The notes under the pieces: generated by a model | Seen by the model: only the letters and a program-made list of their open reading frames with translations | Database searches by the model: none | Told to the model about the DNA's origin: nothing | In this document: positions 1-8,064 of the stretch, in pieces | Layout of the letters: each line of letters opens with the position of its first letter | Numbering within the stretch: position 1 is the first letter of the stretch | Source: Ileibacterium valens | GTDB taxonomy: Bacteria > Bacillota_I > Bacilli_A > Erysipelotrichales > Erysipelotrichaceae | DNA length: 34,741 nucleotides | Assembly: GCF_001945525.1 (NCBI RefSeq) | Contig: NZ_MPJW01000122.1 | Span: forward strand, 1 to 34,741 | Direction of reading: 5' to 3' | Translations under genes and position numbers: made by a program

Positions 1-117
1 TATAGTCTATTTACATAACTACTATACCATAAATAAGCCTATATATCGAGGGCCGACACCGCTAAATTGAACTTAAAAACAGGGGTTAGAGGCTTTACAC
101 AAGACCAATCTGCAGAA

Positions 118-155
118 GAAATTAAAAGCCAGGCACCCCATGCAGGTGCCCGGCT
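118..155 (-). terminator. Rho-independent terminator after mobile-element remnants
   Basis: Arms at 127-137 and 145-155 pair over 11 positions with one A/C mismatch around a 7-base loop. Read on the minus strand the stem is followed by TTTTAATTT. It lies just beyond the relaxase-like fragment, so it may be the original terminator of the mobile element. Confidence 0.6.
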
Positions 156-170
156 ATAGATAAAGCCTGT

Positions 171-290
171 TTATGGGCAAATCTTATAGTCTAATCGACT
201 GGGAAAGTTGTAATCAAATGAACTGAGGAGGATCGTCTTTTCAGATTTCAGTTCTTCCAAGTCTTCTGTCAGTTCGGCCCGTTTTGCTCG
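171..290 (-). pseudogene. Relaxase/mobilisation protein fragment (remnant)
   Basis: A 39-codon open stretch (290 down to a TAA at 171) encodes a charged coiled-coil-like piece containing RAELTEDLEELKSEK. This resembles the helical C-terminal part of relaxases carried by conjugative and mobilisable elements in Firmicutes; the assignment is from memory of the family and is tentative. There is no start codon or catalytic domain. It is in a different frame from, and slightly overlaps, the recombinase remnant immediately upstream, which indicates a deletion junction near 285-295. Confidence 0.4.
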
Positions 291-552
291 ATGGTCAGCT
301 GGAAAATACAACGGACAACCGCAGCGGCTTCCTCGTCGATATACCAACTGGACTTATCTCTCGGCATTTTCTTGTAGCCATAAATGGCACAGTTGGTAGT
401 AGGCTTGCCGGATTCGCCTTTCACACGGATCGCTGTGTTCTGCTTGCGGCTCATATCACGAAGATACCACTCGTTCATAATGTTGAGGAACGGGACAAAC
501 TCATTGCTGTTCTGATCGTCGCTGTCCACGTTGTTGGCAATCGCCACATAGT
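269..552 (-). pseudogene. Large serine recombinase fragment (remnant)
   Basis: The last ~94 codons of an open frame running 1063 to 269 match the middle of large serine recombinases (TnpX/TndX-like, the type that moves integrative elements). Recognisable pieces in order are YVAIANNVDS, the FLNIMNEWYLRDMSRK segment, GYKK, and the DEEAAAVVRCIFQL helix. The N-terminal catalytic-serine domain and the C-terminal DNA-binding and coiled-coil parts are missing. The piece is fused in frame behind IS66 sequence through ~40 codons of unrelated residues and stops shortly after the helix, so it cannot be functional. Confidence 0.8.
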
Positions 553-674
553 GGTGACTGTTCACCGAGATACTAAAAGGCACCCAAAAAGGCAGAATTA
601 CTAAAGATAATTCTGCTCTCTGGATGTCTTTTTTGCTTTTAATCAATTGCCTCTGGTTGTCCAGGCATCCTACC

Positions 675-1063
675 TTCTGGGGGTTTATCAGATGCTTGAG
701 AACAGATAGAACACTGTAATTGCGATTGCTCTGAGTGGTTATGATGACCGATTGATGATTGACGAAATCCTGTGCCCCTGAGGCTGAGCCGAACATCTTG
801 GATACATTCTTTCTTGTCTTTAACAAGGACAGAGCCTGCCCTGCCAGATTATTACTATAGGGTGCATCAAAATCCTTAATGAAACGAAGGTGGTCATCCT
901 TGTTTTCAATGAGTCTTCTGAAGGTTCTGTAATAAGGCGGAAACAATTCTTTGTCTTCAATGTCATACTTTTCTGCTTTATCCTCCCCGAATTTCATCCC
1001 TCTATTACAGATATCCAGAAAGCTTTTCTCATATTTTTCGTGGATGATTTGGCCCAGAAACAT
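675..1063 (-). pseudogene. IS66-family transposase C-terminal fragment
   Basis: Residues 1-130 of the 1063-269 frame match the C-terminal DDE region of IS66-family transposases: FIKDFDAPYSNNLAGQALSL, then KTRKNVSKMFGSASGAQDF. IS66 proteins carry the third catalytic acid in NNxAE; here the motif reads NNLAG, with Gly at residue 75 (codon GGG at 841-839), so the catalytic glutamate is lost. The first two thirds of the transposase and both IS ends are absent. It abuts the DHHW gene (27 bases away) and may mark an old insertion or deletion boundary. Confidence 0.85.
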
Positions 1064-1090
1064 CAGTTTTGATAAGTACAGTCTACCTTG

Positions 1091-2425
1091 TTATTCAGAT
1101 TGAGCGTCCGTCAAATCAGCTGCTTTTGCTGTTGGATTCTCTGTAGATTCATCAGAATTCTCCTGTTCCTGATCAATTCCGTTTTCGAATGCTGATTCAG
1201 ACTCATTAACCTGCACTGATTCTTCAGAATTCTGAACCTCTGGTGCTTCTTCAACCGGTTCACTTTCAAATTCAGCAGCCATTGTGGATAATGAAGAATC
1301 ACTCATTAAGGTCTCACACGAATAAACAGCTAGAATTTCATTGATTCCGTTGCGGTTGATCAGTTTTGAAAGTTCATCCATACAATAGCGGGGATCAACA
1401 ATTGTGATACTTCGATAATACGGAAGAAGAAACTGAATCATGGAATTGGCATAAGAATCCTTTATTAACAACAGATTCCGATCATTGTCAGCCATCGTAT
1501 CAATGGTCACAATCGATTGGTTCGCCCCAAGAAAAACCTGATATTGATCTTTTTGGTTTAACTTGTCCACCTGATAAATCGAAGTTGATTTACTGCCATC
1601 TGCCCATTTAACGACATAGGGATTCTCTTTCTGATTGCTCCAGGGACGGATTTTGATTTCATCTTTCAGAAAACAGCTTCCCGAAGCTGAAGCCAGAGTT
1701 CCAATAAAGGAACGGCTGATGGTAAATGAATCAAACTGATCCATGTTCATTCCAAAATCTGGATGGACCTGCTCACAGAAGGTCATAGCCGCCATACCAG
1801 CCGTATCACTTGTCCAATGGTGATCGGTCTTATAGTACAAAGGCTGATCTTTATTGCTTAACAACTGATCATTAATAGAGATCAGTGAAGCAGAAGTCAT
1901 ACTGCCTGAGATCCGGTTAATTTCATTGACCTGATCGATAAAAGTAGCCTGATAAGGCAAGTTTTCTTTTTGAATGCTGGCTGCATCCGGAGCGATCAAA
2001 ACGGATGTCTGAATTCCTGTAGACGCTGCCATGTTGTTGAAGGCGGTAATATTTGAATCCAAAATTTCAGAACTCAGATTATCTGGAGCTGAAAACAGCT
2101 GCCTATGGCCAAGATAAACTTCATTGATTTTGCTTTGACCTGCCGCTTTTCTGAAGATGTAATTCAGATGGAAAAACAAATCACGGCCTGGAAATTGGTC
2201 CTGGGCATAGGATTCAGCTTCCTCACCAAAATCTCCATCCCATAAGTCTTCTGCCTGCATCGCTGGAAACTTTGCAAGAGTTCGGTTTTCTGTCTGCGAA
2301 AAACTGAAGTCAGGCCAGATGATCGATAGAATCAGTCCACAGCTCAGGACAAATATTAATAAGCCTGCCAGATTCTCCGAAATTTTTGCCAGACCAATCC
2401 TGAGGAATTTAAGTAAGTCTTTCAT
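1091..2425 (-). CDS. DHHW-family (AlgX/AlgJ-like) surface polymer acylation protein
   Basis: A 444-residue protein with one N-terminal membrane segment (about residues 20-38), so the bulk is outside the membrane. It carries DHHW at 201-204 and KDSYANS at 322-328, the two signature blocks of the DHHW/AlgX-J group of SGNH-like proteins that work with MBOAT acyltransferases. By family knowledge it probably receives an acyl (acetyl) group from the MBOAT partner and moves it to an exported polysaccharide or wall polymer; the substrate cannot be told. The last ~55 residues are very rich in Glu, Gln, Ser and Asn, an unusual acidic tail. The ATG has a perfect AGGAGG site that overlaps the stop region of the upstream MBOAT gene, implying translational coupling. 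It is the last gene of the three-gene operon. Confidence 0.85.
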   Translation of the reverse strand: MKDLLKFLRIGLAKISENLAGLLIFVLSCGLILSIIWPDFSFSQTENRTLAKFPAMQAEDLWDGDFGEEAESYAQDQFPGRDLFFHLNYIFRKAAGQSKINEVYLGHRQLFSAPDNLSSEILDSNITAFNNMAASTGIQTSVLIAPDAASIQKENLPYQATFIDQVNEINRISGSMTSASLISINDQLLSNKDQPLYYKTDHHWTSDTAGMAAMTFCEQVHPDFGMNMDQFDSFTISRSFIGTLASASGSCFLKDEIKIRPWSNQKENPYVVKWADGSKSTSIYQVDKLNQKDQYQVFLGANQSIVTIDTMADNDRNLLLIKDSYANSMIQFLLPYYRSITIVDPRYCMDELSKLINRNGINEILAVYSCETLMSDSSLSTMAAEFESEPVEEAPEVQNSEESVQVNESESAFENGIDQEQENSDESTENPTAKAADLTDAQSE

Positions 2426-2436
2426 CAGTCATCCTC

Positions 2437-3888
2437 CTAAAAAGCCGCATACAGAAATGTCTGCGCAGATTGAGAAATTATGAACGTCAGACAGATTGCG
2501 AAAGCCAGGATATAGGCTGCATTTCGAAAGACGTTCCACCATTCCCTTTTATTGTGGACTTCAAATAGACGGACTCTAATCGTTCGAGCGATCCGACTAT
2601 CCAGACGACTGACCACAATCACACAGATCATCATCAAAACAAGTCCGTTTTTCAGATAGAAAAGGCTCGCTCCATCCGCAAAGCCACTGACAGTTAATCC
2701 ACTCATACGGATGACTCTGAAAAATGCCTGCATAAAGTCAGTCGATGAAAATAATGTCCAGCCAATAAGCTCCCAGAAAATGACCCACAGGTGAAGGATT
2801 GAAGGATTCCAGGATTTCATTTTGTCTTTTAAAACCAGTCTTTCAAGAAGGATTAATCCTCCCTGCAGCAATCCCCAGACTAAAAATGTCAGTCCAAAGC
2901 CATGCCATACCCCAGTCAGGAACCAGACAATCAAAACATTCAGAATCCAGCGTTTCTGATCGACCCGATTTCCGCCTAAAGGGATATAGACATATTCTCG
3001 AAACCAGGAAGTCAATGAGATGTGCCATCTGCGCCAGAAGTCCTGAACGGATGTGGCCAGATAAGGATGGTCGAAGTTTTTTGGAATCACAAAGCCAAAG
3101 AAAGCTGCCAGTCCTCTTGCCATTCTTGAATAGCCGGCAAAGTCGAAGTAGATCATTAAGAAATAACTGATATTGCAAAGAAGATTTCCTAACCAGGTCG
3201 TATTGGCTAAAAGCCCATTAAAGAGCAGTCCTAAATTATCCGCCAGCAATACTTTAAAGCAGATTCCCTGTAAAAAGAGCATGGCTCCATCCTTAACCTT
3301 TGCTCTTGTCGCTGGATGGTTTTCCATCTGTCCTTTTAATTGTGAGTAATGAGCAATTGGCCCCATATTCACCCAGCCAAAAAAGCCGGCAAATAAGGCG
3401 AATTCCATAAATGAAACGCATTCTTCCTTGTTTTTATAAATATCAAACACAGCGCTCATACATGAAAATAGATAAAAAGAAAGACCAAGCGGCATCAAAA
3501 AAGAGCGTGGTAAGGCAACATCTCCGATCAGCCAGGATAAAGACCCTAAAAGACCTGGCAGGTAGCGGTAAACAAATAAAATGATCAGGTTGCCTGCGAT
3601 CGCTGTAATCAGAACAAGCTTTCTTTTTCTATTAATTTCATTCAGTTCATCTTCATCAATCGTCAGAGCTTTTGCCTGATTAAATACCGATAGCTGTCTG
3701 CATGCTGCAAAGTTCCATAACAGCACCCCAAAGAGAATACATAGTGATAAAAGCGAACCCCAGGAATAAAACAGGATCGAAGCCAGAAAGAGAAACAGGT
3801 TTCTATACCGTGGCTGAATAATAAACCAATAAAGCAGACAACTGATTGGCAAAAAGCCAAAGAGGAAGGCGATATCTGTAAACTGCAT
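2437..3888 (-). CDS. MBOAT-family membrane O-acyltransferase (AlgI/DltB-like)
   Basis: A 483-residue polytopic membrane protein with about ten hydrophobic segments. MBOAT landmarks are clear: YFDFAGYSRMARG (247-259), DFWRRWHISL with SWFREYVYIPLGG (283-306), and LTGVWHG (324-330) with the invariant His329. Members move acyl groups across the membrane to secreted polysaccharides or teichoic acids. No dlt genes are present, so this is the AlgI-like branch paired with a DHHW protein rather than D-alanylation. Its ATG overlaps the TGA of the upstream DUF4358 gene by one base (TGATG), and the DHHW gene follows after 11 bases. The acyl donor and acceptor are unknown. Confidence 0.93.
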   Translation of the reverse strand: MQFTDIAFLFGFLPISCLLYWFIIQPRYRNLFLFLASILFYSWGSLLSLCILFGVLLWNFAACRQLSVFNQAKALTIDEDELNEINRKRKLVLITAIAGNLIILFVYRYLPGLLGSLSWLIGDVALPRSFLMPLGLSFYLFSCMSAVFDIYKNKEECVSFMEFALFAGFFGWVNMGPIAHYSQLKGQMENHPATRAKVKDGAMLFLQGICFKVLLADNLGLLFNGLLANTTWLGNLLCNISYFLMIYFDFAGYSRMARGLAAFFGFVIPKNFDHPYLATSVQDFWRRWHISLTSWFREYVYIPLGGNRVDQKRWILNVLIVWFLTGVWHGFGLTFLVWGLLQGGLILLERLVLKDKMKSWNPSILHLWVIFWELIGWTLFSSTDFMQAFFRVIRMSGLTVSGFADGASLFYLKNGLVLMMICVIVVSRLDSRIARTIRVRLFEVHNKREWWNVFRNAAYILAFAICLTFIISQSAQTFLYAAF

Positions 3889-4460
3889 CAGTGATTCCCC
3901 CTTAATGCGTCAAGAAATGCCTGATCGCTCTGAGCTGCTGCATCCCCCGTATAAAACAGAAGATAATTTCCCTGAACATCAAGCAGAGCGTTTTCCATCA
4001 TCGCCTGCTGTTCTGGTGCATATCCTGAATAAATATCAATCTGCGCCTGCTTTCGGGTTTCAATTCGCTCTGTGATCATTTCAGCCTGCTGTTCCGTATC
4101 AAATTTTGCGATCACGATTTCTCTGGCCGAAAAGGCATCTGATTGTCTGTAGAATCCGATCTGCACCCCTTCCTGCGGACCGATATTCAAATATTTACGG
4201 ACCATCTGATCATTCATTGCCGGATAAAAAGCCGGATCGTTGACTGCTAAAACTGCCTGCTCAACCAGTGAAAATTCACTCGAAGAAACGATCGGCTGCC
4301 TGATCCAGGGAATAATCCATAAAGCCAGAAAGAAAATGGCAGTTCCAACCTTTAGCCCATTCATCCAAAGAATTGTGCCGGGTTTTGTCTTGTTCCTGCT
4401 CTTGTTCTTTTCTTGTCTTCCCGTCTTCAGATTACGAAAACGGGTGAAATTTCCTTTCAT
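3888..4460 (-). CDS. DUF4358-type membrane-anchored protein
   Basis: A 190-residue protein with a basic N-terminus (residues 5-33), one membrane segment (about 35-52) and an external domain of ~130 residues. The external part, with YLNIGP, the FYRQSDAF region and QAEMITERIETRKQAQ, resembles the DUF4358 proteins commonly found beside MBOAT/DHHW pairs in Firmicutes. Its biochemical role is unknown; context suggests an accessory or substrate-handling part of the surface acylation complex. It is the first gene of the operon, with start ATG preceded by a TAGGGGA ribosome site. The 64 bases upstream contain no obvious consensus promoter. Confidence 0.7.
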   Translation of the reverse strand: MKGNFTRFRNLKTGRQEKNKSRNKTKPGTILWMNGLKVGTAIFFLALWIIPWIRQPIVSSSEFSLVEQAVLAVNDPAFYPAMNDQMVRKYLNIGPQEGVQIGFYRQSDAFSAREIVIAKFDTEQQAEMITERIETRKQAQIDIYSGYAPEQQAMMENALLDVQGNYLLFYTGDAAAQSDQAFLDALRGNH

Positions 4461-4524
4461 TCAATCCCCTACTTTCTTTACTTCTTATTGATTATTGACT
4501 CCTGAAATCTGAGTATGTCATCTG

Positions 4525-5544
4525 CTATTTCTGTTCAGGTAAAGAAAAGAAATCGATCTGTCCAAAATAGGAACGCTTTCCTTTTGGTTCGCAGATCATT
4601 CCGCCTTTTTCATAAATAGCGATCACTTCAAGTCCAGAATCATCCATCGCTTTTTCGATATGCCTTTTCTGATGAGAACTGCCCTGGTAATGAACTTCAA
4701 TATCAAAATCATCAAGATACCCTAAGCCAGAATACCAGCCATAATCTGGATAATCTTCATCTGGTGTGATGTGATATCTTTTCAGCTGAATCATTGCTCC
4801 AGCTGAAAATCCGACTATCGTCTGTTGATAATTTTTTAATATCGCAGTCAGTTTCTTTTCCTTGATTCTTTTCATCATCAGATCTGGCGCTCCTCCAGGA
4901 AGAACCAGAATACTTGAATTCAGGATTTTATTTTTCATCACTTCAGGCGAATCTTCAAAAAAGTTGACCCAGACAATCTGATCTTTTTTTAAACCAAACT
5001 TCAAAAAAGGATCTGTGTTCGCACGATACCAGATTCCGCGGCCTGCTCCAAATTGCCTGTCCCAATCTTGCGCGTTTTTTGTATCATCATAAAAACTGAA
5101 AGCAAGAATACAAACTCGATCTGTTGGCCTGTAAACCTTTTTTAATGCTGGATAGCACCATTTCTCGTCGTACATGGAAGTATTCATTAATATATTCATT
5201 CGGTGCTTTGCATTGATTTCTTCAATTCTGAGAATATCTTTTGCTGTCAGTTCACTCTGTAAAACAGGAACTGACAGTTTTCCATGAATCCATTTGCACT
5301 CCTGAGACTGCCAAAAAAGATCAAGATTTGGATTCAAATCATCGATGACAAGCAAAACTGAATCATTCTCATCATTTGTCTCTTGCTTATGCTTATCCAT
5401 GGATTGAATCTGGTCCCGATTTTCCATGGCAAAAGTATTTCGACTTGAAAAGAAAATGGGATTATCCTTACTGGCTTTCAAAGACAGCGAACCATCAAGA
5501 AGTTTTTGCGCCTGAGCTCTGTCAATTTTACGGACAATTTCCAT
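4525..5544 (-). CDS. Peptidase S51-like (type 1 glutamine amidotransferase-fold) protein
   Basis: A 339-residue cytoplasmic protein. The C-terminal ~210 residues have the S51 (dipeptidase E / cyanophycinase) pattern: ILVLPGGAPDLMMKR (212-226), the nucleophile elbow GFSAGAM with Ser247, and a His in the IEVHYQ segment. These enzymes are serine hydrolases that cleave Asp-containing dipeptides or related substrates. The first ~125 residues are extra relative to dipeptidase E (~230 residues) and are not recognised. The ATG lies 9-10 bases after an AGG-type ribosome site, 10 bases downstream of the small upstream gene, so the two are probably co-transcribed. The substrate is not predictable. Confidence 0.75.
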   Translation of the reverse strand: MEIVRKIDRAQAQKLLDGSLSLKASKDNPIFFSSRNTFAMENRDQIQSMDKHKQETNDENDSVLLVIDDLNPNLDLFWQSQECKWIHGKLSVPVLQSELTAKDILRIEEINAKHRMNILMNTSMYDEKWCYPALKKVYRPTDRVCILAFSFYDDTKNAQDWDRQFGAGRGIWYRANTDPFLKFGLKKDQIVWVNFFEDSPEVMKNKILNSSILVLPGGAPDLMMKRIKEKKLTAILKNYQQTIVGFSAGAMIQLKRYHITPDEDYPDYGWYSGLGYLDDFDIEVHYQGSSHQKRHIEKAMDDSGLEVIAIYEKGGMICEPKGKRSYFGQIDFFSLPEQK

Positions 5545-5554
5545 AACAATAAGC

Positions 5555-5803
5555 CTATCCTAAACGCAATGGACGATCATCCAAGCAGTTTGCTGCATAA
5601 ATTTCTTCATACATCTGCTGAAGAAGTTTTCCTTTGGCATTGAGTTCATATTGCCAGTCATTGCCGTTGGCTTTAATTTCGTCATTAATTGCTTTTAATA
5701 TGAAAGCAGGATTGGATGTCTGCATGCTTGCGCCAATGGCCTGCCATGGCTCATCGAGTTCCTGTTCTAGAATCGCAATCTGTTCATTGGTAATTGTAAT
5801 CAT
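5555..5803 (-). CDS. Small hypothetical protein (82 aa)
   Basis: No family is recognised. The 82-residue product is acidic, helical-looking and soluble, without signal peptide, membrane segment or cysteine motif beyond a single Cys. It has a good ribosome site (AAGGAAGG, about 8 bases before the ATG) and lies 10 bases upstream of the S51-like peptidase gene, so it is likely translated and co-expressed with it. It could be a partner of the peptidase, but nothing in the sequence shows that. Confidence 0.65.
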   Translation of the reverse strand: MITITNEQIAILEQELDEPWQAIGASMQTSNPAFILKAINDEIKANGNDWQYELNAKGKLLQQMYEEIYAANCLDDRPLRLG

Positions 5804-5931
5804 GAATAGTTTTCCTTCCTTTTACTTGTAACCTGCTATCTGTTTTTCATCTTGAATGGATTGTTCCTGGTATTCTGGGATTCTCAGTTTTCACCAATCT
5901 GAGTCCCTTATCGATTTTGCTTTTCAAAGTC

Positions 5932-5965
5932 AAAAAAGGGAATACCTCGATGATGAGATATTCCC
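5932..5965 (-). terminator. Rho-independent terminator of the ligA-camS-gatCAB operon
   Basis: GGGAATACCTC (5938-5948) pairs with GAGATATTCCC (5955-5965), one mismatch, loop GATGAT. On the minus strand it is followed by TTTTTT (5937-5932). It lies 32 bases after the stop of the 196-residue gene. Confidence 0.85.
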
Positions 5966-5996
5966 AAAGTGTCTTGCCTGAGGCTGAATATTTCGA

Positions 5997-6587
5997 CTAC
6001 CGTCGAACCTGATCAGTCAGCTCCTGATTTCTGGCAACACGCATATTATCGATCACCTTACCAGAAGCTCCGGTTTTCAGAATCTTGATGTATCTTTGTC
6101 CATCAATTGGATGGTCTGCATCGACCAGGAAATTGTAGGAATCGATTTCAAGATCATAGTTCTTGGAGTCATTTGAATTTGTAAAATAGGTATCGATCGG
6201 CAGGACATTGTTGACGATTCCATATGCGGCTTCAGCTGCGTTCGTCAGTCCGTCATCGTCATATCCATCCTGCATATTCAGATGAATACGCAAGGTTGCG
6301 CTTTTCATATCCATTGTTGCGCTTTCAACCCCTTCGATATTCATCAATTCACTCTGAATGGCATCCAGATCTTTTTGTTGAATTTCAGGCTGAAGAGCAT
6401 TTTCGGAAAAGCGGCTGCCTTCAACCGGCTTTCCCTGTGATTCCATTGAACTCATCAGGACATAGCCCACGATGGCCACCGGAATCAGAATGATAATCAG
6501 AGTCAGCCAGACGAGTTTATGCCCCTGTTTGACTTTCTGCTTCTTTGGTTTTCGTGTTTTCTTTACTTTTACTGGTTCAATCGGCAT
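5997..6587 (-). CDS. Membrane-anchored hypothetical protein, last gene of the gat operon
   Basis: A 196-residue protein: a strongly basic cytosolic head (KVKKTRKPKKQKVKQ, 7-21), one membrane helix (about 26-46), then an external acidic domain of ~150 residues. The segment around LMNIEGVESATMDMKSATLRIHL-like residues 78-99 resembles small alpha/beta folds that read '...GVxSATxxxKxATLRI', but I do not recognise a family. Its start has a strong GGAGG site five to six bases upstream. It follows gatB after 52 bases with no terminator between and is followed by a terminator, so it is co-transcribed with ligA-camS-gatCAB. A role in envelope biology is only a guess from its topology. Confidence 0.75.
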   Translation of the reverse strand: MPIEPVKVKKTRKPKKQKVKQGHKLVWLTLIIILIPVAIVGYVLMSSMESQGKPVEGSRFSENALQPEIQQKDLDAIQSELMNIEGVESATMDMKSATLRIHLNMQDGYDDDGLTNAAEAAYGIVNNVLPIDTYFTNSNDSKNYDLEIDSYNFLVDADHPIDGQRYIKILKTGASGKVIDNMRVARNQELTDQVRR

Positions 6588-6639
6588 TTGATCCTCCGCT
6601 TAATCCTAACAAGTATACCATATTCGAGCGCTGTAGTTT

Positions 6640-8064
6640 CTAACGTTTAGTCAGCTCAGTACGAATCATTTCATTGGTCTTCTTTGGATTGGCCTTTCCT
6701 TTTGAAGCTTTCATGACCTGACCAACCAGGAATCCGATTGCGCGGTCCTTACCATTCTTGTAGTCTTCAATCGACTGTGGATTGGCATCCAGCACGCTGT
6801 TGACCATTTCAAGAAGAGCAGAATCATCACTGACCTGTTCCATCCCTTTTTCTTTGATGACTTCACGCGGCATCTTTCCCTGCATGACTTCTTCAAAGAT
6901 TTCCTTTCCCTGTTTGCCGGAAATTACACCATCATGAATCACATTGACTAATTCAGCGGCAGCTTCAGGGGTCAGCTTGCTTTGGGCTAAGGCTACCGAA
7001 TTTTTATTGAGCCATGCTGAGATATCACCGATTACCCAGTTGGCCATTTTCTTGGCATCCCTGGCAGTCTTCATTGCTTCTTCATAGAAGTCTGCTTTTT
7101 CACGATCGTTGACCAGTAGGCCAGCATCATAATCACTCAGCTTATACTGGCTGATCATGCGTTCTTTTCTGGCCTGCGGCAGTTCTTCCATATTGGCCTG
7201 AATCTCTTCAATCCAGGCTGGATCCAATGCAATGGGGAAAATATTTGGTTCGGGGAAATATTTATAATCGACATTTCCCTCTTTTTTACGCATCAGAACA
7301 GTCGTTTTCGTGGGCTCATCATAGCGGCGGGTTGCCTGTTCTACCTTTTGCCCTTCATCAAGCAGTGCGCTTTGTCTTTCAATTTCAGCTGCCACAGCTT
7401 TTTGAACATTGGCAATCGAATTCAGGTTTTTGATTTCGGTTTTCGTTCCTAATTTTTCGGGATCATCTGAAAGCGAAATGTTTACATCACAGCGCATGCT
7501 TCCTTCTTCCATTTTGACATCTGAAACATTCAGATAAAACAGAATCTGGCGAAGCGCCTCAACATAGGCAGCAGCTTCCTGAGCTGTATGCATGTCCGGT
7601 TTTGAGACGATTTCAACTAATGGAGTTCCAGCCCGGTTGAAGTCAATGTAGGTTCCTGATTCCTTATGAAACTGCTTAGCTGTATCTTCTTCCATATGAA
7701 TTCGTTCAATACGGATCTTCTTCTTTCCTTCTTCGGTTTCAATTTCTACAAAGCCATCTTTTCCAATCGGATGAAATTGCTGAGTAATCTGAAATCCCTT
7801 GGGCAGGTCAGAATAGTAGTAGTTTTTTCGATCAAATTTAACGAGTGGATCAATCGTGCAGTTAAGCCCGGTACAGGCTTTGATTGCCAGACGAACAGCG
7901 TTCTTATTCAGGCAGGGCAGCGTTCCAGGCAGCCCAAGATCAACAGCTGAAGTGCAGGTATTGGCTTTTTTGCCAAAAGCGACAGGAGCCGATGAAAACA
8001 TTTTGGTATTGGTTTTTAATTCGCAATGAATTTCAATTCCAATGGTTGGCGTATATTTGCTCAT
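6640..8064 (-). CDS. gatB: Asp-tRNA(Asn)/Glu-tRNA(Gln) amidotransferase subunit B
   Basis: A 474-residue protein of normal GatB length. It contains the DRKNYYYSDLPKGFQITQ block (78-95), IHMEEDTAK (122-130), DFNRAGTPLVEIVSKPD (141-157), a middle cradle domain that binds and phosphorylates the misacylated tRNA, and the C-terminal YqeY-like tail domain ending in MIRTELTKR. GatB activates Glu-tRNA(Gln) or Asp-tRNA(Asn) and accepts ammonia from GatA. The ATG overlaps the gatA stop (ATGA), which favours equal production of the subunits. Its presence implies indirect synthesis of Gln-tRNA and/or Asn-tRNA. Confidence 0.97.
   Translation of the reverse strand: MSKYTPTIGIEIHCELKTNTKMFSSAPVAFGKKANTCTSAVDLGLPGTLPCLNKNAVRLAIKACTGLNCTIDPLVKFDRKNYYYSDLPKGFQITQQFHPIGKDGFVEIETEEGKKKIRIERIHMEEDTAKQFHKESGTYIDFNRAGTPLVEIVSKPDMHTAQEAAAYVEALRQILFYLNVSDVKMEEGSMRCDVNISLSDDPEKLGTKTEIKNLNSIANVQKAVAAEIERQSALLDEGQKVEQATRRYDEPTKTTVLMRKKEGNVDYKYFPEPNIFPIALDPAWIEEIQANMEELPQARKERMISQYKLSDYDAGLLVNDREKADFYEEAMKTARDAKKMANWVIGDISAWLNKNSVALAQSKLTPEAAAELVNVIHDGVISGKQGKEIFEEVMQGKMPREVIKEKGMEQVSDDSALLEMVNSVLDANPQSIEDYKNGKDRAIGFLVGQVMKASKGKANPKKTNEMIRTELTKR

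Follow-up and report, generated by a model that had tools for sequence, protein, structure and literature searches.

INTRODUCTION

Pairs of a membrane-bound O-acyltransferase (MBOAT) and a DHHW-family enzyme are already known from PatA1/PatB1, which O-acetylates the secondary cell wall polysaccharide (SCWP) of Bacillus cereus (PMC9487903), and from CcsH/CcsI of clostridial cellulose synthesis (PMC7710045). Here we describe three adjacent genes of Ileibacterium valens that encode a DUF4358 protein, an MBOAT protein, and a DHHW protein and that lie on the minus strand of the first 34,741 nucleotides of contig NZ_MPJW01000122.1, the whole stretch that was analyzed (the window).

The trio shares with PatA1/PatB1 an MBOAT and a DHHW enzyme bearing the motifs TDHHW, KDS, and DXRY, which in PatB1 are the catalytic-triad and oxyanion-hole motifs (PMC9487903), but it has DUF4358 as a third member, many relatives have a GDSL gene as a fourth, and the I. 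valens genome has no match to PF04230 (polysaccharide pyruvyl transferase). CcsH and CcsI are likewise an MBOAT-DHHW pair, although they adjoin cellulose synthase genes (PMC7710045), none of which was found beside the trio. The cluster for O-acetylation of peptidoglycan (OAP), patA, patB, and ape1, is the precedent for an MBOAT, a transferase, and an esterase encoded together (PMC6174289); it shares with the trio an MBOAT with a C-terminal FXYXXF and an SGNH transferase, and many relatives of the trio add a second SGNH hydrolase. In contrast with the OAP cluster, DHHW here replaces the PatB family, DUF4358 is present, and the GDSL protein of the I. valens genome, a putative esterase, is encoded on another contig.

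In alginate acetylation by AlgI/AlgJ/AlgX/AlgF, an MBOAT and SGNH-like proteins are likewise joined by a small extracytoplasmic protein, AlgF, for which a role with AlgJ/AlgX has been proposed and which sets a precedent for a small partner (PMC10641220). A further point in common is a DUF4358-ALGX fusion in one relative and a weaker one in another. However, AlgF consists of two beta-sandwich domains (PMC10641220), whereas a single-sequence model of the DUF4358 protein is alpha/beta with a mean predicted local distance difference test score (pLDDT) of only 63, and no synthase or export genes were found among the tested neighbors of the trio. With DltB/DltX/DltD the trio has in common an MBOAT matching the DltB model and an acyl-tyrosine shuttle motif; the match is far below the model's cut-off, however, and the motif is on the MBOAT itself. 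In known systems, acylation of this type shields the wall from lysozyme (PMC12148441, PMC6174289). Searching titles and the beginnings of abstracts in a literature largely without subscription journals, we found no description of the cassette, and DUF4358 appeared in the same literature only as a row of a proteomics table.

RESULTS AND DISCUSSION

The trio probably encodes a surface O-acyltransferase with a third component

We conclude that the trio is probably a surface O-acyltransferase of the PatA/PatB1 type with a third, extracytoplasmic component. Its enzymes are most likely an MBOAT-SGNH surface O-acyltransferase, judging from sequence, because the MBOAT carries FLYAAF, the DHHW protein carries TDHHW, KDS, and DPRY, and the best solved match of the latter is B. 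cereus PatB1 (E value, 2e-16). The original prediction had called the genes a minimal transmembrane acylation set. Family and motif content support acylation well, but “minimal” does not fit relatives, in which a GDSL gene stands beside the trio in 25 of 60 MBOAT loci and is fused in 3 more.

The best solved match of the MBOAT was DltB (E value, 2e-19), and the protein did not reach the NCBIfam DltB model TIGR04091 (138.4 bits; cut-off, 375). The FXYXXF hexapeptide, which in PatA and DltX holds the acyl group on its tyrosine (PMC12148441), formed the extreme C terminus in 70 of the 71 distinct MBOAT proteins collected. The exception, L031, was the single locus returned when genome_contigs was scanned with the MBOAT query; it lacks the hexapeptide and has a very long branch in the MBOAT tree. 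The DHHW protein additionally matched ALGX (PF16822, 37.8 bits; cut-off, 26.5), and its N terminus has a hydrophobic stretch by eye, modeled as a helix (residues 2 to 36) in a poor single-sequence model with a mean pLDDT of 38.

The DUF4358-MBOAT-DHHW cassette is conserved in two genome sets

Searches for relatives covered 60 genomes, including that of I. valens. Loci whose hits all fall in the class of the window genome, taken to be Bacilli, form the own-class set; the second set comes from the class of G290, the source of L031, taken to be Clostridia and called here the Ruminococcus class. In the latter, 34 of 148 genomes had a DUF4358 match, and 3 of the 45 hits (two in G291 and one in G347) are absent from the loci. 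Counts refer to 91 DUF4358-anchored loci, from which L031 and L081 to L091 (chosen for MBOAT or DHHW) were left out; L062 and L080 are one place, so L062 was dropped and L080 stands for it in the Tyr147 and neighbor counts, and L088 enters the gap, Tyr147, and neighbor counts only. We kept open reading frames (ORFs) of at least 80 amino acids that contained no more than 5 X; genes within the N-runs of L046 and L059 are therefore hidden.

An MBOAT gene stood beside DUF4358 in 60 of the 91 loci (29 of 49 own-class loci, window included, and 31 of 42 Ruminococcus-class loci), so the predicted neighborhood survived this check, though 31 loci were without an MBOAT. The order DUF4358-MBOAT-DHHW held in all 29 own-class loci with an MBOAT, and the gap between DUF4358 and MBOAT was at most 74 bases in 30 of 31 own-class cases. 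In the Ruminococcus class, DUF4358 preceded MBOAT in 26 of 31 loci (with DHHW in view in 24), and the other 5 carried DUF4358 in a protein downstream. Across the I. valens genome and its 59 relatives, an MBOAT lay within 2 kb on the same strand for 18 of 34 DUF4358 Pfam hits, compared with a mean of 0.056 and a maximum of 2 in 10,000 runs of a chance model of random placing that took its MBOAT rows solely from genomes in which DUF4358 was matched.

The trees of the two proteins were similar. In the MBOAT tree, the window paired with G003 (100/100), and the pair fell within a clade (99/99) made up of ten trio rows; in the DUF4358 tree, the same ten genomes plus G028 formed an eleven-row clade (95/85), with the window-G003 pair at 94/71. 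Trio labels required 4 changes on the MBOAT tree (shuffled mean, 7.4) and 6 on the DUF4358 tree (shuffled mean, 15.7), with L089 and L090 (MBOAT) and L039 and L046 (DUF4358) placed with the trio by judgment on account of split contigs or an N-run.

Several observations weigh against the PatA/PatB1-type reading with DUF4358 as a third component. Given the label changes, the trio is not one clean clade in either tree. The 31 loci without an MBOAT comprised 20 of 49 and 11 of 42 in the two sets; three of them could not be judged, as L039 ends 158 bases past DUF4358 and L046 and L059 run into N. One relative, G031, has DUF4358 and no MBOAT match. Among 92 DUF4358 proteins, some found by custom profiles alone, 10 were beside GDSL only (L039 and L046 included), 4 were beside DHHW only, and 17 were beside none of the three partners. 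DUF4358 is also joined to a transglutaminase-like domain (L159:4098-5756) and, in a 331-amino-acid protein with no MBOAT in view (L162:6854-7849), to three preceding SLH repeats, which points to other uses; the latter gene adjoins a DHHW-like gene slightly below cut-off (24.7 of 25). Conversely, MBOAT-DHHW pairs occur without DUF4358, and the structural model of DUF4358 is of middling quality. Because of the loci without MBOAT and the GDSL-only, DHHW-only, and partnerless cases, DUF4358 cannot be regarded as exclusive to the MBOAT machine. An ordinary MBOAT-DHHW pair with DUF4358 as a mere passenger would account for the DUF4358-free pairs and for DUF4358 without MBOAT, but the conserved order and close spacing, the similar trees, and the fusions described below make this highly improbable.

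The four loci with DUF4358-free pairs (L081, L082, L083, and L085) represent a second MBOAT-DHHW type that has no KDS motif and forms its own clade (100/100); G001, G013, and G029 have both types. In L163 (6863-7858), which was outside the Pfam scan, another 331-amino-acid DUF4358 protein is encoded beside a DHHW-like gene, again with no MBOAT in view. In one setting of partnerless DUF4358, the surrounding genes are those for FMN-dehydrogenase, pyrophosphatase-like, BrkB, and RNA methyltransferase proteins, and the trios of L038, L041, L073, and L078 occupy similar settings.

A GDSL/SGNH hydrolase and domain fusions point to a possible role of DUF4358

The gene directly upstream of DUF4358 often encodes a GDSL/SGNH hydrolase, the N terminus of which is hydrophobic or lipobox-like. 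Such a gene stood beside the trio in 11 of 29 own-class and 14 of 31 Ruminococcus-class MBOAT loci, the 3 fused cases being in the latter set; it was downstream of the trio in L043, and L035, with two, was counted once. In a Pfam scan that covered 62 of the 74 upstream and 60 of the 72 downstream flanking proteins, GDSL was found in 11 of the 62 upstream proteins and every other family in at most 2, and the commonest downstream family was found in 3 of 60. The window genome yielded a single GDSL homologue, near the end of contig C120 and unlinked to the trio; by eye, an apparent transposase fragment lies beyond it. The GDSL protein L035:7112-7855 had no sequence match in the PDB at a threshold of 0.001.

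In three Ruminococcus-class loci (L136, L143, and L144), a single polypeptide directly after the MBOAT carries DHHW, GDSL, and DUF4358 in that order, all three Pfam domains being above cut-off with no N or stop within. With custom profiles, neither DUF4358 nor GDSL was found as a separate gene in these loci, of which L136 covers only ~1 kb past the MBOAT; the genome of L143 (G394) has another GDSL-DUF4358 pair elsewhere (L154). Another fusion, of DUF4358 with an ALGX domain, lies next to MBOAT-DHHW in L160, above cut-off; L165 has the same look next to MBOAT-DHHW, with DUF4358 at 20.1 bits, below cut-off. These domain fusions make it likely that DUF4358 shares an extracytoplasmic task with SGNH enzymes, not exclusively. 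Taken with the conserved cassette and the frequent GDSL neighbor, the DHHW-GDSL-DUF4358 fusions suggest that DUF4358 most likely works outside the cytoplasm as a partner of SGNH enzymes, although the loci without MBOAT show that it is not tied to the MBOAT machine alone.

A narrower explanation is that DUF4358 partners the GDSL hydrolase alone and that eraser and writer modules are merely cotranscribed, with no contact between DUF4358 and MBOAT or DHHW. Of the 92 sequences, 10 have GDSL-DUF4358 without MBOAT, although two of these cannot be judged, and DUF4358 directly follows the GDSL domain in the three fusions. Nevertheless, 18 of 29 own-class MBOAT loci have no GDSL beside the trio, the one GDSL homologue of the window genome is unlinked while its DUF4358 is still with MBOAT-DHHW, and DUF4358 immediately precedes MBOAT in unfused cassettes; we therefore regard this explanation as improbable. 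Four of the GDSL-DUF4358 pairs without MBOAT (L047, L066, L067, and L074) lie directly after scpA and scpB, and L054 has scpA, scpB, and DUF4358 with no GDSL.

Returning to the PatA/PatB1-type reading, from the observed gene content, order, motifs, conservation, and fusions we infer the following route. An acyl group, most likely acetyl, would be transferred from cytoplasmic acyl-CoA onto the tyrosine of the C-terminal FLYAAF of the MBOAT, passed by this peptide to the DHHW serine on the outer face, and attached by DHHW to a hydroxyl group on a polysaccharide of the wall or surface. As a partner anchored in the membrane, DUF4358 would dock the SGNH enzyme or enzymes to the MBOAT or gate transfer, much as has been proposed for AlgF, and the GDSL/SGNH hydrolase of many relatives' cassettes may be an O-acyl esterase similar to Ape1. 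A bolder version, which we consider rather unlikely, is that the full cassette is a self-contained write-and-erase machine. DHHW would add acyl groups received from the MBOAT and GDSL would take them off the same polymer, while DUF4358 would link the two activities or switch between them; its highly conserved Tyr147 would take part in the switch or even serve as a further acyl carrier. In the three fusions, writer, eraser, and coupler would then be one chain. The association of DUF4358 with acylation genes in two genome sets and in fusions offers a testable role for this domain in acylation of the envelope and suggests an equivalent of the AlgF step.

Properties of the DUF4358 protein

Most of 54 DUF4358 proteins had a lipobox or an N-terminal hydrophobic stretch by simple patterns, and we infer that the PF14270 domain lies outside the membrane. 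Tyr147 was the only invariant column in an alignment of 31 sequences, which were chosen from cassettes. Tyrosine was found at this position in 48 of 56 MBOAT-linked proteins (with 3 gaps), 9 of 10 GDSL-only proteins, 10 of 17 proteins with no partner, 1 of 4 DHHW-only proteins, and 5 of 5 fused proteins. The idea that Tyr147 is an acyl carrier peculiar to the MBOAT setting is not supported by these counts.

Foldseek returned nothing for the DUF4358 model at an E value of 0.001 or better (top match, a designed protein at 0.057). The top VIA-align 2 match, the extracellular domain of PknH (Z score, 5.2), was too low and close to unrelated rows, and the top match of a PDB profile search with the 31 sequences was PorM/GldM (E value, 0.014); neither was used. 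A scan of viral_contigs, for which a single DUF4358 protein (L032:7857-8333) was the query, yielded no confirmed relative.

Candidate acceptor polymers

The family absences given here rest on a genome that is 98% complete. The I. valens genome had no match to PF04230, PF04464, or DltB; it had one MBOAT, five LCP proteins, and one AT3 match, and no OatA-sized protein was found, as that match lies in a 339-amino-acid frame. Given the missing PF04464 and PF04230 matches, neither a TagB/TagF-type polymer nor a pyruvylated polysaccharide is a likely acceptor in I. valens, which leaves an LCP-attached glycopolymer or peptidoglycan as candidates, each compatible with the PatA/PatB1-type reading.

A general wall polysaccharide of the SCWP kind, as for B. 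cereus PatA1/PatB1, is a possible acceptor that we put forward tentatively: PatB1 is the top solved match of the DHHW protein and has the same three motifs, and the five LCP proteins agree with it. On the other hand, the missing PF04230 match means that it would not be the pyruvylated form, and 7 of 18 trio genomes (G000, G003, G007, G024, G030, G034, and G035, the window genome among them) lack a PF04464 match. Peptidoglycan, with which the cassette would correspond to the OAP cluster of Gram-negative bacteria, is a doubtful candidate. Once GDSL is counted, the parts list equals that of the OAP cluster (PMC6174289), and the absence of an OatA-sized protein and of PF04464 and PF04230 matches is in keeping with it, but PatB1, the DHHW enzyme of known activity, works on secondary wall polysaccharide (PMC9487903), and the five LCP proteins point to wall glycopolymers. 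Moreover, AT3 frames of at least 550 amino acids occurred in 3 of 18 trio genomes (G001, G022, and G030) and in ~7 of the other 42, so no pattern of OatA being replaced by the trio was seen.

Among flanking proteins of the cassettes, polymer-related matches were limited to LCP (2 of 60 downstream) and PGA_cap (1 of 62 upstream). For the window, the original prediction that no polymer synthesis genes adjoin the trio agreed with our scan: none was found among the neighbors tested, with an 82-amino-acid ORF at 5555-5803 and the ORFs beyond 22956 outside the scan.

The acidic tail of the DHHW protein

The DHHW protein had been predicted to end in an acidic tail of ~55 residues not expected for the family. 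The tail is indeed present (Table 1), and long C termini occur in some relatives too. Of 68 distinct DHHW proteins, 50 matched patterns for all three motifs, and in these we compared the number of residues beyond DxRY; the window protein had 97, compared with a median of 37.5. The end was of equal length in L142 (97) and longer in G003 (136), L160 and L165 (182 and 183), and the three fusions (386 to 394). All of these except G003 belong to the Ruminococcus class; G003, the sister of the window in the MBOAT tree, is the only own-class protein with the three motifs and a comparably long C terminus. From its sequence, the tail looks like a flexible extension. An insertion sequence as its source is unlikely because G003 is also long-tailed.

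Architecture and surroundings of the locus

ORF positions, Pfam matches, and the sequence itself confirmed the predicted arrangement of three minus-strand genes with a 1-base junction and a Shine-Dalgarno-overlap junction (Table 1). DUF4358 and MBOAT meet at TGATG and share one base at 3888, the MBOAT gene starting within the DUF4358 stop codon; 11 bases separate the MBOAT stop from the DHHW ATG.

Table 1. Positions of the genes, motifs, and signals of the trio in the window
Feature	Position	Strand	Remarks
DUF4358 protein, 190 aa	3888-4460	minus	PF14270, 60.5 bits; cut-off, 25
PF14270 domain, aa 82-169, after a basic N terminus and one hydrophobic segment (best 19-residue stretch from aa 35)	3954-4217	minus	
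Tyr147 of DUF4358	4020-4022	minus	Sole invariant column in alignment
MBOAT acyltransferase, 483 aa	2437-3888	minus	PF03062, 68.7 bits; cut-off, 27
FLYAAF at MBOAT C terminus	2440-2457	minus	Fits acyl-shuttle motif FXYXXF
AGGAGG Shine-Dalgarno of DHHW gene	2433-2438	minus	Overlaps MBOAT stop codon TAG, 2437-2439
DHHW-family SGNH acyltransferase, 444 aa	1091-2425	minus	PF14286, 61.5 bits; cut-off, 25
TDHHW of DHHW, aa 200-204	1814-1828	minus	PatB1 counterpart: catalytic-triad Asp and His
KDS of DHHW, aa 322-324	1454-1462	minus	PatB1 counterpart: nucleophilic Ser
DPRY of DHHW, aa 344-347	1385-1396	minus	PatB1 counterpart: oxyanion-hole Arg
Acidic C-terminal tail of DHHW, 59 residues	1094-1270	minus	19 D/E, 1 K/R

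A promoter scan of positions 1 to 6700 gave 8 sites, fewer than the 13.5 expected, and thus singles out no promoter there; terminator-like sites in the same region numbered 12 compared with 5.4 expected. The neighbors of the trio are a peptidase S51-like gene and a transposase/recombinase remnant, and more distant genes encode an amidase, CamS, and DNA ligase; by eye, GatB and GatC genes lie beside that for the amidase. The S51-like gene (4525-5544, minus) is on the same strand, 64 bases upstream of DUF4358, where many relatives have the GDSL gene, and phmmer found no match to it in loci L031 to L091. On the other side of the trio, a 264-amino-acid minus-strand ORF (269-1063) matched the end of an IS66 transposase at residues 43 to 126 (E value, 8.5e-8, far below cut-off) and, weakly, a serine recombinase (CcrC) at residues 168 to 261 (E value, 0.014); it is perhaps a remnant patched together from two mobile genes.

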